Assembly (NCBI RefSeq): GCF_009695655.1
Contig: NZ_VUNM01000002.1
Coordinates: 124,001-188,000, forward strand
Origin: Sharpea porci
GTDB taxonomy: Bacteria; Bacillota_I; Bacilli_A; Erysipelotrichales; Coprobacillaceae
Direction: 5' to 3'
Length of the DNA: 64,000 nt
The number at the start of each line of letters is the position of its first letter. Positions within the stretch are counted from its first letter, which is position 1. The notes below the pieces were generated by a model. It worked only from the letters and a program-made list of their open reading frames with translations, did no database searches and was not told the DNA's origin. The translations under genes and the position numbers were made by a program. Positions 37,490 through 43,061 of the stretch are shown piece after piece.

Positions 37490-37495
37490 TATGCT

Positions 37496-37709
37496 ATCGT
37501 TGATGGGGAGGAGTAAATAGGCTCGAGCTTTAAAGAGAATCCCGTATGCTGGAAAGGGAGAAGCAGAACTATTGAAGGTAGCCTCGGAGAAGATTTCATG
37601 AAATGAAGTAGTGAAGTCCGTATGACTGCGTTAAAGTCTTAAGGCATAGCAATATGTGAATTAAGGTGGTACCACGAGACATTCGTCCTTAGCGAATGTC
37701 TCTTTTTTT
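37496..37709 (+). ncRNA. T-box riboswitch leader, valine-specific (specifier GUA)
   Basis: The leader shows the stem I S-turn AGTA (37512-37515) with its partner GAA. Following the GAA-N-specifier pattern seen in characterised T-boxes, the specifier is GTA at 37578-37580, a Val codon. The T-box AAGGTGGTACCACG (37663-37676) contains the TGGT that pairs with the tRNA acceptor end. It is followed by a terminator stem GAGACATTCG/CGAATGTCTC and T's (37676-37709). Uncharged tRNA-Val should switch on the downstream membrane-protein gene and valS. Confidence 0.95.
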
Positions 37710-37724
37710 ATGGAGGAGGATATT

Positions 37725-38378
37725 TTGAGTCAAAATACATTAGTGAATGTCATTGTATGGGGGGCATTTATTGCTATTATGCTGATCTTAGTGCCTTTTA
37801 CTTTGAAACGTGTGCGTGAAAATCGTAAAAGCAAGGCGAAGCAAGAAGCACAATATCAAAGTGATCGTTTAGAGTATGCCCATCTAGATGAAAAGAAATT
37901 GAATGCACTTGAAGGGGAAAAGCTTGTTGAAGCTGTCATTTATCAATGTTTGCGTAAAGAAGATGAAGATGATCAGTATTTCGAACATTTAAGTGAGGCT
38001 GAAAAGACAATTTATGCCATCTATCAAGTCAATCAGACAGTCAGTGCAAATGCTGGATTAAGATCATTCTTTATTTCACCAGCAAGTGAACCGTTTTTAA
38101 AAGATCTTGTGTCTTATTATAAGAACATCGGGGCCTATGATGTTGCTGAAGTTGTGAGAAATGCTGAAATCTTAAATAAGATTATGGAAACGGATGATGA
38201 TTCTTTGGAGAAAGAAATGTCACCGGAATATGTAACTTATAATTTTTCGGATCTAACACATGAATATATAACATTGGTTGTGGGGACAAACTTCACTACA
38301 AAGATGGCACAGTATGTTGAGGAACATAAAGAAGAATTTATTGAAAAAGGAGCAGAAGATGAAACAGTTAGCAGATAA
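37725..38378 (+). CDS. Single-helix membrane protein co-regulated with valS
   Basis: 217 residues. One N-terminal helix (about 8-28) is followed by a basic stretch and a soluble helical domain. The segment 'NAGLRSFFISPASEPFLKDL...YKNIGAYDVAEVV' weakly resembles the DMP19/DUF4375 helical fold; this is tentative. The TTG at 37725, five bases after GGAGGAGG, is the likely start, since the ATG at 37710 overlaps that site. It overlaps valS by 20 bases. Why it should be under valine T-box control is unclear. Confidence 0.65.
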   Translation: MSQNTLVNVIVWGAFIAIMLILVPFTLKRVRENRKSKAKQEAQYQSDRLEYAHLDEKKLNALEGEKLVEAVIYQCLRKEDEDDQYFEHLSEAEKTIYAIYQVNQTVSANAGLRSFFISPASEPFLKDLVSYYKNIGAYDVAEVVRNAEILNKIMETDDDSLEKEMSPEYVTYNFSDLTHEYITLVVGTNFTTKMAQYVEEHKEEFIEKGAEDETVSR

Positions 38379-40980
38379 GTATGACCATCATATGGTTGAA
38401 AAAGACAAATATAAACATTGGGTAGAAAAAGGTTATTTTGAAGCTGGAGATTTAAGCAAGAAACCTTACAGCATTGTTATTCCACCACCAAATGTAACAG
38501 GTAAGTTACATTTAGGACATGCCTGGGATACAACATTACAGGATATTATTATTCGTTATAAAAGAATGCAGGGCTTTGATGCTTTATGGCTTCCTGGTAT
38601 GGACCATGCTGGTATTGCCACACAGGCAAAAGTTGAAGCAAGAATGCGTGAAGAAGGCATCAGCCGTTATGATATTGGTCGTGAAAAGTTCTTAGAAAAA
38701 GCCTGGAGTTGGAAGGAAGAATATGCTTCCATCATTCGTTCGCAATGGGCTAAGTTAGGTCTTGCTTTGGACTATTCAAAAGAAAGATTTACTTTGGATG
38801 AAGGCTTAAGTGATGCTGTAAAGACTGTCTTTGTGACATTGTACAATAAAGGTCTTATTTATCAGGGAGAAAGAATTATTAACTGGGATCCTGTACAGCG
38901 TACAGCTTTAAGTGATATTGAAGTTTATCATGAAGATATTAAAGGCTATATGTATTATTTCAAATATAAGATTGTTGGTAGTGATGATGAATTAGTTGTC
39001 GCTACAACTCGTCCAGAAACAATGTTTGGTGATACGGCTATCTTTGTGCATCCTGATGATGAAAGATATCAGAAATATGTTGGTATGAAAGCTATTAATC
39101 CAGCTAATGGGGATGCATTACCAATCATGGCTGATGACTATATTGAACTTGGTAAGGGTACTTCGGTCATGAAATGTACACCTGCTCATGATCCTAATGA
39201 CTTTGCACTAGGAAAGAAATATGGTTTAGCTATGCCAATCTGTATGAATGATGATGGCACTATGAATGAGCTTTGTGGTAAGTATAATGGAATGGATCGT
39301 TTTGCCTGTCGTGATGCCTTGGTAAAAGACTTTGAAGCAGCTGGTGTTGTTGATCATATCGAAGAAATTGTGCATCCAGTAGGACATTCAGAAAGATCAC
39401 ATGCAATTGTTGAACCAAGACTTTCAAAGCAGTGGTTTGTTAAGATGAAGCCATTAGCACAGGCAGCGCTAGAAAATCAGAAGAATGAAGATAATCGTGT
39501 TAACTTTGTGCCTGAACGCTTTGAAAAAATCTTTACACAATGGATGGATAATATCGAAGACTGGTGTATTTCAAGACAGCTTTGGTGGGGCCATCAGATT
39601 CCTGCCTGGTACAATAAAACAACTGGTGAAGTCTATGTTGGTAAAGAAGCACCTGAAGATCTAGAAAACTGGAAGCAGGATGAAGATGTTCTCGATACAT
39701 GGTTCTCTTCAGCACTTTGGCCATTTTCAACAATGGGCTGGCCTGATACTGATAACCCACTCTTTAAACGTTATTTCCCAACAGATACATTAGTAACAGG
39801 ATATGATATCATCTTCTTCTGGGTAAGCAGAATGATCTTCCAGTCATTGGAATTCACTGGCAAAAGACCATTCAACCATGTTTTGATTCATGGCTTAATT
39901 CGTGATGAACAGGGTCGAAAAATGTCAAAGTCATTAGGCAATGGCGTTGATCCAATGGATGTCATTGATCAATATGGGGCTGATACATTACGTTTCTTCC
40001 TGACAAACAATACAGCACCTGGACAGGATATGCGTTATGTTCCATCTAAGCTAGAAGCCATCTCCCACTTTATTAATAAAATCTGGAATTCTGCACGTTT
40101 CGTAAAGATGAATATCGATGAAGATATGGAATGGGCTGATATTAAGCTAGAAAATCTTAATTTACCAGATCTCTGGATTTTAAATCGTTTAAATGAAGTT
40201 ATTCGTGATGTCAATACGAATATGGATAAGTTTGAATTTGGTAACGTGGGTAGTGCATTATATGACTTTATCTGGAATGAATTCTGTAGCTGGTATATTG
40301 AATTGGCGAAGGAAACACTGAATGGTGATGATGCTCTCGCAAAGAAGGCAACACAGGATACTCTTGTTTATGTGCTCAATGCGATTGTACGCTTGCTGCA
40401 TCCATTTATGCCATTTGTGACTGAAGAAATTTATCAGTCCATCCCACATGCAAGTGAATCCATTGTTATTGCAAGCTGGCCTGAAGTGAATGCTGACTTT
40501 GATAATGATAAGATTGATGATCAGTTTGCTTATTTGATGGATATTGTCAAAGGTATTCGTGAAATCAGACATCAGTATGTCATTAAGAATAATGTTGAAG
40601 TCGAATATACAATCACGACAAAAGTAGAAGGATTAGAAGAACTCTTAGCTGATATGGCACCATTTATTTCTAAGCTCGTTAATGCGAAAGTAGCTGGATA
40701 TAATCTTGAAGTCGGCAAGAATGCAGCGAATATCATTATTAAGGGTGGTAATACTCTTTCTGTTGACCTTGGGCAGTATGTTGATATGGAAGCTGAAAAA
40801 GCAAAGGCTCAGAAAGAATTAGAAAAACTGGAAAAGGAATTGGAAAGAAGCAAGAAGATGCTTTCAAACCCTAACTTTGTTCAGAAAGCTCCAGCAAGCA
40901 AGGTGGAAGAAGAAAAGAAGAAACAAGCTGATTACCAGGCAAAATATGCCGCACTTAAAGAAAAGCTTGCTCATATGTAG
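38359..40980 (+). CDS. valS: Valyl-tRNA synthetase
   Basis: 873-residue class I synthetase. The catalytic HIGH motif reads 'HLGH' in 'PNVTGKLHLGHAW', the KMSKS motif is 'GRKMSKSLGN', the CP1 editing domain has 'TTRPETMFGDTA', and the C-terminal coiled coil ends at the stop ('AEKAKAQKELEKLEKELERS'). The ATG at 38359 follows AAAGGAG inside the upstream gene. It is controlled by the valine T-box 850 bases upstream. folC, the common next gene, is missing. Confidence 0.97.
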   Translation: MKQLADKYDHHMVEKDKYKHWVEKGYFEAGDLSKKPYSIVIPPPNVTGKLHLGHAWDTTLQDIIIRYKRMQGFDALWLPGMDHAGIATQAKVEARMREEGISRYDIGREKFLEKAWSWKEEYASIIRSQWAKLGLALDYSKERFTLDEGLSDAVKTVFVTLYNKGLIYQGERIINWDPVQRTALSDIEVYHEDIKGYMYYFKYKIVGSDDELVVATTRPETMFGDTAIFVHPDDERYQKYVGMKAINPANGDALPIMADDYIELGKGTSVMKCTPAHDPNDFALGKKYGLAMPICMNDDGTMNELCGKYNGMDRFACRDALVKDFEAAGVVDHIEEIVHPVGHSERSHAIVEPRLSKQWFVKMKPLAQAALENQKNEDNRVNFVPERFEKIFTQWMDNIEDWCISRQLWWGHQIPAWYNKTTGEVYVGKEAPEDLENWKQDEDVLDTWFSSALWPFSTMGWPDTDNPLFKRYFPTDTLVTGYDIIFFWVSRMIFQSLEFTGKRPFNHVLIHGLIRDEQGRKMSKSLGNGVDPMDVIDQYGADTLRFFLTNNTAPGQDMRYVPSKLEAISHFINKIWNSARFVKMNIDEDMEWADIKLENLNLPDLWILNRLNEVIRDVNTNMDKFEFGNVGSALYDFIWNEFCSWYIELAKETLNGDDALAKKATQDTLVYVLNAIVRLLHPFMPFVTEEIYQSIPHASESIVIASWPEVNADFDNDKIDDQFAYLMDIVKGIREIRHQYVIKNNVEVEYTITTKVEGLEELLADMAPFISKLVNAKVAGYNLEVGKNAANIIIKGGNTLSVDLGQYVDMEAEKAKAQKELEKLEKELERSKKMLSNPNFVQKAPASKVEEEKKKQADYQAKYAALKEKLAHM

Positions 40981-41114: not shown

Positions 41115-42077
41115 ATGATCATTTTAGAAAAACTCTCTTTGTTTGAAATGCTGGATCAGATTTATTCTTTGGAAGGTATTCAGAAATTAGCTAAAGTACG
41201 TGAGATACCTTATGAAGAAGGGGATACTAAGAAGAAAATCATGAAAGATATTGTTGATTGTTTGCTGGAAGAAGATTATTTTCGTCAGCATCTCTATGTC
41301 ATCAGTGATCAACATATGAAATTGCTGAGAAAACTTTTGAAACAGCAAGAGCGTTTTATCCTTTCTAATCGCAATAAGGAAATTGAGGCTTTTGATGAAT
41401 TAGATACGCTTGATTATGTTGATATAGATGAAGAAAGAGAAGATGTCTTTATACCGATGGATGTCAGAAATCTTATTGTGAAAATAGATGGTCCTGAATT
41501 TGAACAAATGCGTAAGAAAGTCTTCTGGCTTCATGCTATCTTGTATCATGCTTTCTTTCTCTATGGCGTTGTAAAAATGGATGAAGTACTGACAATGTAT
41601 AATGCCCGTAAGGGATTTCAGGCAAGCAGCGAAGAGCTTGAACAGTATTTCTCATACATTCCTCTTGATTTTCAAAAGTTTGTTTATTTAGATGGACGCT
41701 TTATAGCATTTGATTTGATTGGTAAAGATTCTTTGGAATCAACAATCGATTTGCAGCAATACTATGAAATACAATATCCTCGTACCGATGAAATACTTGA
41801 TCATTATAATGAAGGATATCCTATCTCATCCATTAACTACAACAAGATTGATCAATTCCTTCATACAAAATCAATGAGTGAACGTCAAGAAAAAAACTTT
41901 ATGAAAAAGTTCTATGAGAGTGTTATTCAAGGTGAACAGTTAGCGGGCCTTTTAAATCAATTCGAAGGTTATCTGAGAGATGAGGATGAAGTGCTATTTG
42001 TGACAAGAACATTAAAGGAAATTATCAAGGAAACACCACAATATAAATATCATGGTAGAAATGCGTATGAGATATGA
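41115..42077 (+). CDS. Hypothetical helical protein
   Basis: 320 residues, soluble, strongly charged and mainly helical, with no signal peptide, membrane segment or cofactor motif. The N-terminal part ('LEKLSLFEMLDQIYSLEGIQKLAKVREI') looks like a SAP/helical-bundle DNA- or protein-binding module, but that is only an impression. The ATG at 41115 has AGGAAG five bases upstream. It lies upstream of the double-glycine peptide gene on the same strand, with no strong terminator between. Confidence 0.6.
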   Translation: MIILEKLSLFEMLDQIYSLEGIQKLAKVREIPYEEGDTKKKIMKDIVDCLLEEDYFRQHLYVISDQHMKLLRKLLKQQERFILSNRNKEIEAFDELDTLDYVDIDEEREDVFIPMDVRNLIVKIDGPEFEQMRKKVFWLHAILYHAFFLYGVVKMDEVLTMYNARKGFQASSEELEQYFSYIPLDFQKFVYLDGRFIAFDLIGKDSLESTIDLQQYYEIQYPRTDEILDHYNEGYPISSINYNKIDQFLHTKSMSERQEKNFMKKFYESVIQGEQLAGLLNQFEGYLRDEDEVLFVTRTLKEIIKETPQYKYHGRNAYEI

Positions 42078-42168
42078 TATTTTCAAATTATGAAAATAAT
42101 AGTTTTAAGTGAGAAATCTCTCCTTTTATAGCAAATACATATATAGAGGGGCAGGAAGGAGAATATCT

Positions 42169-42327
42169 ATGTATGAATTAACAGAAATGGAAATGCAAAG
42201 TATTAATGGAGGTTCGGCACTTATTTATTTAATCTATGTTATTCTTGGCGTAGGCGCTTATAAGCTTCTTAGATCTAAACGTGGACGTATGAGTCTTCCT
42301 AGATTAATACAAATTGAATGGGGCTAG
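42169..42327 (+). CDS. Double-glycine leader peptide, putative bacteriocin or signalling peptide precursor
   Basis: A 52-residue precursor preceded by a strong AAGGAGA site. The first 15 residues (MYELTEMEMQSINGG) match the ComC/class II bacteriocin leader: Leu-12, Thr-11, Glu-8, Met-7, Ile-4 and Gly-Gly at -2/-1. Cleavage would give a 37-residue peptide with a hydrophobic helix ('ALIYLIYVILGVGAYKLL') and a basic tail ('RSKRGRMSLPR'), ending WG. Export would need a peptidase-containing ABC transporter, which is not in the window. An immunity gene is not evident unless the 41115 gene serves. Activity is inferred. Confidence 0.65.
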   Translation: MYELTEMEMQSINGGSALIYLIYVILGVGAYKLLRSKRGRMSLPRLIQIEWG

Positions 42328-42336
42328 AATGCATGA

Positions 42337-42362
42337 AGAGAGGCTTTAGGCCTCTCTTTTTT
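42337..42362 (+). terminator. Terminator after the GG-leader peptide gene
   Basis: AGAGAGGC-TTTAG-GCCTCTCT followed by T's, 10 bases after the stop. Confidence 0.85.
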
Positions 42363-42377
42363 AAAAGGGGGTAAATC

Positions 42378-43061
42378 ATGATTAAGAATCTACCAATAGA
42401 AGAGAATCCACGGGAGAAGGCACTGATTAATGGGATTGGTTCTTTAAGCAATATCGAACTACTAGCGTTACTTTTAAGAACGGGCAATAAGCAGCAGTCT
42501 GTTTTAGATCTATCTCGGGAGGTGATCAACAAAGCAGGTGGTATGCATCAAATGCGCTATTTGAATTATCAACAACTTACGGCCATCCGGGGAATCAAAA
42601 AGGCAAAAGCTATTGAATTGCTTGCTGCAATAGAACTTGGGAAACGTGCCATGAGTGAGGCGAAGCTTACTTTTACTGTGGAACATCCTGGTGATGTTTA
42701 TCATTTTGTAAAAAGTGAATTAATGTTTGAAGAACAAGAGCATTTCATGATTTTAATACTGAATAGTCGTCATGAATTAATTAAGAAGCAGACATTATTT
42801 ATTGGTACTGCAGATACTTCGCTTGTTTCATCTAGAGATATTTATAAGGCGACACTGAGTGTGAATGGTGTGGCTATTATTTGTGTTCATAATCACCCAA
42901 GTGGGAATGCCTCACCAAGTGAGCAGGATTATCGGATTACGAAAAATCTTGAAGAATCAAGTGCAATAATGCATATTGAATTTGTTGATCATATTATTGT
43001 GGGAATGCATGAGTATTTTAGTTTTAAGGCAAAGAAGGTGTATGTTGAGCAAGAAGGATAA
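42378..43061 (+). CDS. radC: RadC/UPF0758 family JAB-domain protein
   Basis: 227 residues. An N-terminal helix-hairpin-helix-like region ('LLRTGNKQQSVLDLSREV', 'LTAIRGIKKAKAIEL') is followed by a JAB1/MPN metalloprotease fold with 'VHNHPSGNASPSEQD', the His-x-His-x10-Asp zinc motif. Despite the name its role in DNA repair is not established. It precedes mreC, as in other Bacillota, but mreB is not between them. GGGGG precedes the ATG. Confidence 0.92.
   Translation: MIKNLPIEENPREKALINGIGSLSNIELLALLLRTGNKQQSVLDLSREVINKAGGMHQMRYLNYQQLTAIRGIKKAKAIELLAAIELGKRAMSEAKLTFTVEHPGDVYHFVKSELMFEEQEHFMILILNSRHELIKKQTLFIGTADTSLVSSRDIYKATLSVNGVAIICVHNHPSGNASPSEQDYRITKNLEESSAIMHIEFVDHIIVGMHEYFSFKAKKVYVEQEG

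Follow-up and report, generated by a model that had tools for sequence, protein, structure and literature searches.

An exporter with a C39 peptidase domain is generally taken to belong to a bacteriocin or pheromone system. Bacteriocins are expected to vary in their core, to come with an immunity gene and to be distributed patchily, and a pheromone is expected to need export. The closest described counterparts of the locus analysed here are the PCAT systems PCAT1-CtA and ComA-ComC, which share with it the leader grammar (hydrophobic residues at −12, −7 and −4, and GG) and an ABC exporter of about 680–690 aa with Cys, His and Asp in its C39 domain. The lactobin A/cerein 7B family (TIGR03949) likewise combines a leader with a hydrophobic helix, and the peptide described here scores above the cut-off of that model. 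Leaders of double-glycine substrates are required to have hydrophobic residues at −4, −7 and −12 and glycines at −2 and −1 (PMC10885120).

The peptide gene lies between valS and radC in a stretch of 64,000 nucleotides, the whole of which is called the window here. The features of the locus are as follows.

38278–40980, + strand: valS, fixed upstream neighbour, given as the longest ORF; the true start is possibly later
41115–42077, + strand: gene of 320 aa between valS and the peptide gene, without an above-threshold match in Pfam or NCBIfam
42156–42161, + strand: ribosome-binding site AAGGAG, 7 nt 5′ of the ATG; strong Shine-Dalgarno sequences in relatives too
42169–42327, + strand: double-glycine-leader gene of a putative membrane peptide, ATG to stop, 52 aa
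42169–42213, + strand: leader MYELTEMEMQSINGG, residues 1–15, recognised by the leader positions; C39 cut predicted after Gly15
42214–42324, + strand: core, residues 16–52 (37 aa), with a hydrophobic helix at about residues 16–35, a predicted beta-hairpin tail and the motif YKLLRSKRGRMSLPRLIQIEW, from conservation and AlphaFold
42335–42362, + strand: hairpin and T-run, probable terminator 3′ of the peptide gene (−16.2 kcal/mol, z −2.6)
42378–43061, + strand: radC, fixed downstream neighbour of the peptide family (Pfam PF04002, 132 bits; synteny)

From the ATG at 42169 to the stop codon at 42325–42327, the gene encodes MYELTEMEMQSINGG followed by SALIYLIYVILGVGAYKLLRSKRGRMSLPRLIQIEWG. The initial annotation had placed a double-glycine-leader gene with a strong ribosome-binding site here and had listed L−12, T−11, E−8, M−7, I−4 and GG as its key leader positions; the ORF, the AAGGAG and every one of these residues were confirmed. 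I−4, M−7 and L−12, together with GG, are the residues required of a substrate leader. L−12 occurs in 32/32 tabulated GG-leader peptides, and −7 is often Gln within the peptide family. Judged by these substrate features, the window peptide would be a C39 leader peptide, which is a known kind. The terminator claimed for the gene probably corresponds to the hairpin and T-run after the stop codon, although the hairpin is absent from the list of the consensus terminator scan. The AlphaFold model (mean pLDDT 77.7, pTM 0.40) predicts a helical leader, a helix at residues 15–35 and a hairpin (39–43/47–51). Mean Kyte-Doolittle hydropathy over the first 19 residues of the core is +1.85. The window peptide has no Pfam match. 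An identity as type IV prepilin was dropped on reading the sequence, as its mature part has no Glu at +5.

The window's family consists of gut bacteria, and a profile search detected orthologues at the same place in 40 of its 43 genomes. A first search of 60 relatives had returned the peptide from across this family but only rarely from the sister family; in a second collection the named carriers were Massilimicrobiota, Faecalibacillus, Thomasclavelia and [Clostridium] spiroforme. Wherever the sequence of a family locus spans both valS and radC, the peptide lies between them. Residues M1, E3, L4, G14, G15, G27, S36, G39, R40, E50 and W51 are invariant in 22 aligned members. Purifying selection acts on leader and core alike, with a core dN/dS of about 0.02–0.13 in counts within genera. 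The gene is not a chance ORF, since the 40/43 family orthologues share one place, L−12 is invariant and dN/dS is low. Conservation of the leader in orthologues, named earlier as a check, was found across the window's family; the peptide of genome G005 (locus L134) has GE for GG although the exporter is present. Genome G010 contains valS, a SPOR-like gene and radC, with neither the peptide nor an exporter of the C39/ABC type. The assemblies of G011 and G025, in which no peptide was found, also lack radC, so that the locus lies outside the available sequence and these two genomes are not assessable. The expectation that such a gene is easily missed by annotation was supported, and no description of the peptide was found in the open-licence literature.

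The peptide had initially been taken for an orphan class II bacteriocin. A bacteriocin of this class (IIb-like) using a shared C39 exporter would be in keeping with the canonical leader, the C39/ABC exporter in the genome, the hydrophobic cationic core and the tandem and diverged copies of some genera, and the TIGR03949 score is 23.6 bits (cut-off 21.5). However, that match aligns residues 2–30 only, which are mostly leader, and is shared by 3 of 32 wider-family members at E up to 0.01; the lactobin A/cerein 7B label from NCBIfam is probably misleading. The core is conserved under purifying selection in a peptide that is near-universal and syntenic in the family. No immunity gene is conserved next to it in the loci read across the family, and single queries of a plasmid and a phage collection (E up to 0.01) returned no match. 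Together with leaderless orthologues, which persist in genera without this C39 type (see below), the family-wide synteny, the purifying selection on leader and core and the missing conserved immunity gene led us to judge the orphan bacteriocin assignment unsupported, and we regard any such bacteriocin as highly doubtful.

The neighbours of the peptide gene in the window are valS, the 320-aa gene, radC and mreC. No second peptide or immunity gene was seen between valS and radC within the window, second copies being found in some relatives only. The 320-aa gene is confined to the window's genus among the loci read. The description of the peptide gene as solitary holds for the window's lineage, but not for relatives, where tandem copies or a SPOR-like gene adjoin it. 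Tandem arrays of at least three paralogous copies were observed at loci L011, L017, L018 and L021. At L025 (1654–1791), L032 (1634–1792) and L023 (1240–1386), second double-glycine peptides with unrelated cores lie beside the conserved one; these could be two-peptide systems. Most relatives have a membrane protein of about 120 aa with a SPOR-like domain between peptide and radC (1725–2090 in L009), which is not found in the window. A cell-wall role, hinted at by the adjacent radC-mreCD and this gene, was judged weak, the SPOR-like match being below cut-off (16.7 against 21 in Pfam) and the gene missing from the window. The window's sole Rfam match is a T-box leader at 37491–37693 (112.7 bits), 5′ of a 222-aa ORF and valS.

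The initial statement that no exporter adjoins the gene is correct locally, but the genome encodes one full C39 peptidase/ABC exporter on another contig (C9), so the proposed search for such a transporter was successful. It is located between ybeY and an argD-like gene and is unlinked to the peptide. Its C39 domain (G000:C9:42466–42855) matches PF03412 with 115.6 bits and ABC domains are present; a second PF03412 match in this genome, on contig C76, is weak (28 bits). Twenty exporter loci were read in the family, including that of the window's own genome. The exporter directly adjoins ybeY in 19 of them, the remaining one being a short contig that ends before ybeY, and an argD-like gene follows on the 3′ side in most. 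All 20 exporters retain the Walker A motif and, in the C39 domain, Gln, Cys, His and Asp; the ABC signature region was inspected in a few. Of the 40 peptide-bearing family genomes, 39 contain the exporter; the exception, G002, is 69% complete. Among sequences of solved structures, PCAT1 (4ry2, E 2.5e-41) and ComA (8hf4) are the nearest. The best NCBIfam model is NF045998 (Mbov_0121 family, 3.9e-80), whose cut-off of 500 bits is not reached (270 bits), and the exporter is therefore not filed as a member of that family.

A model spanning both families (E up to 0.01) detected a homologue in about 64 of 273 sister-family genomes. Nearly all of those read sit 5′ of radC, at a distance of a few to about 500 bases, and have a strong ribosome-binding site. 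Three leader states occur: GG; GK, GS, GL, GM or GR; and leaderless, with the gene beginning at the core and mostly without in-frame room for a leader. In all six leader-bearing genera (g37, g53, g69, g75, g76 and g77), a stand-alone C39 domain lies directly 5′ of ybeY with no transporter, whereas none of the 11 leaderless genera (g21, g30, g52, g54, g58, g63, g64, g66, g74, g78 and g80) has a stand-alone C39 at ybeY. This genus-level contrast (6/6 versus 0/11) gives a Fisher p of 8e-5 with genera that are not independent and with G269 (g72), whose leader state is ambiguous, left out. About four leader-state changes were placed on the radC tree (bootstrap range 3–5), at least two of them forced by well-supported branches, so that few independent events underlie the comparison. 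Leader and C39 are present or absent together across unlinked loci of the sister family. No C39 was found in the four leader-bearing genomes G262, G279, G287 and G288, each less than 90% complete, and G281 (68% complete) has a C39 domain while its peptide was not found. Full-length exporters of a different type are encoded in some g54 genomes, and a single weak PF03412 match in G252 (g66; 1.4e-4) was not confirmed by the dedicated model. In G236, G211 and G292, peptide matches with an in-frame stop were observed, representing decayed copies or adjacent second copies. Core dN/dS in leaderless genera is 0.02–0.07. As relatives without the protease also lack the leader and keep the core, the product is probably a conserved membrane peptide, not a weapon.

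Counted from their likely start, the stand-alone C39 domains are about 111–127 aa long. All 15 sequences compared keep the Cys, His and Asp, but as translation begins just before the Cys, they have lost the N-terminal strand that contains the oxyanion Gln. The AlphaFold model of a stand-alone domain (pLDDT 89.8) has its best fold match in 6mpz (TM 0.77), in which the peptidase domain of a double-glycine protease is in complex with its leader. Given the lost oxyanion Gln and the GK, GS, GL, GM and GR leaders, cleavage by the stand-alone domains may be altered or absent. Leaders of the GK/GS type keep Gly at −2, and a cut after the single Gly would be one possibility. The missing Gln, the several leaders without GG and the maintenance of orthologues without any leader would also suit a small membrane protein whose leader-like start is simply part of it and no C39 substrate, the C39 genes serving other peptides. 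We consider this quite unlikely: L−12 is found in all 32 GG-leader peptides, leader and C39 states covary across unlinked loci, and the valS-radC peptide is the only double-glycine peptide that the models used detected in the window's genome.

A conserved extracellular signal, matured and exported by C39 and sensed by a receptor of its own, would fit a leader and exporter resembling ComC/ComA and the near-universal presence in the family. In the conserved neighbourhoods of peptide and exporter, where most flanking genes are unannotated, neither a histidine kinase nor a regulator could be identified. The core is modelled as a helix of membrane length with a hairpin, not as a short soluble peptide; it is strongly conserved instead of diverging from strain to strain, and its leaderless orthologues occur in genera without this C39 type. 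We found nothing here that favours a signalling role, and a pheromone appears unlikely.

The variable core, immunity gene and patchy distribution expected of a bacteriocin were all unseen, and leaderless orthologues are under selection without this C39; we therefore favour a vertically inherited small membrane peptide that is matured by C39 and acts in the producer cell, as opposed to a variable bacteriocin, and hold this to be reasonably probable. For this peptide we infer cleavage, transport, membrane insertion with its direction, and a partner. It would be synthesised with the 15-residue double-glycine leader, which the C39 domain of the unlinked ybeY-side ABC exporter would recognise and cut after Gly15. 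The mature 37-residue peptide would then reside in or on the membrane by means of its hydrophobic helix, and the conserved basic beta-hairpin tail may act on a conserved partner. One conflict within this proposal concerns topology: secretion by the ABC exporter would leave the tail on the outer side, but for a helix that has no leader and ends in a basic tail, an inward-facing tail would be expected. The chief gap in the account of a producer-acting peptide is why the window's family has retained the ABC exporter. The GE leader of G005 despite its exporter, the lost oxyanion Gln and non-GG leaders of the stand-alone systems, the bacteriocin-like tandem and diverged copies and the TIGR03949 score above cut-off also speak against it.

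Among 395 genomes drawn from the class, peptides were also found in families f8, f19, f24 and f25. Their leaders end mostly in GG, PG, GD or TG, and in most loci read valS ends just 5′ of the peptide and radC follows 3′. A core-only model, built without sequences of these other families, recovers ten of the peptides in their loci (E 1.7e-10 to 2e-3), so that the wider distribution does not rest on the leader. Family f12 (L248, L249) has conventional clusters in which double-glycine peptides with unrelated cores adjoin a C39/ABC exporter. In family f16, three genomes of 0.7–0.8 Mb, in which TGA apparently encodes Trp, contain double-glycine peptides (L246, L247 and L286). Their first TGA codon coincides with the invariant Trp of the peptide family, and one of these peptides is located just 5′ of rplU. 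Genome G583, which has a double-glycine peptide, encodes an Mbov_0121-family exporter (526.6 bits against the NF045998 cut-off of 500). The core-only model did not recover the G583 peptide in a search of the whole genome, and the strong mollicute homology first deduced from the TGA position was downgraded for this reason; the sequence features of the f16/mollicute branch are no more than suggestive of homology to the valS-radC peptide. It is possible that the f16 peptides are substrates of Mbov_0121 exporters.

A broader reading, which we advance tentatively and rate a little short of even, is that of an undescribed valS-X-radC membrane protein family in which leader and C39 form a detachable housekeeping maturation module, perhaps reaching the mollicutes as a substrate of Mbov_0121 exporters. 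The module would form a series, with a full exporter in one family, the peptidase alone in some sister genera, and repeated loss of both from lineages that retained the core. Full exporter, peptidase alone and lost leader constitute a natural experiment that separates leader cleavage from transport. The valS-radC peptide gives a widespread exporter a definite candidate substrate. Since putative substrate and peptidase are both encoded by core genes with fixed, mutually unlinked positions, some orphan exporters and orphan bacteriocins of gut Bacilli may together form one housekeeping system.

Compared with the PCAT systems, substrate and exporter are unlinked here, each in a fixed housekeeping locus family-wide, and sister lineages have the peptidase domain alone or neither peptidase nor leader. 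Unlike lactobin A/cerein 7B, the window peptide has a conserved C-terminal motif and housekeeping synteny, with no partner or immunity gene in the window. The Mbov_0121 exporters provide the best model for the exporter of the window's genome, yet it stays below their cut-off and the G583 member lies above it. AcrZ-type single-helix membrane proteins would resemble the mature peptide in having a single helix within about 40 aa, a likeness of kind only; we know of no complex-tuning small protein of the AcrZ type with a removable double-glycine leader. New relative to these systems is an arrangement in which the core genes are unlinked, C39 domains occur naturally on their own, and leader and peptidase are lost together.
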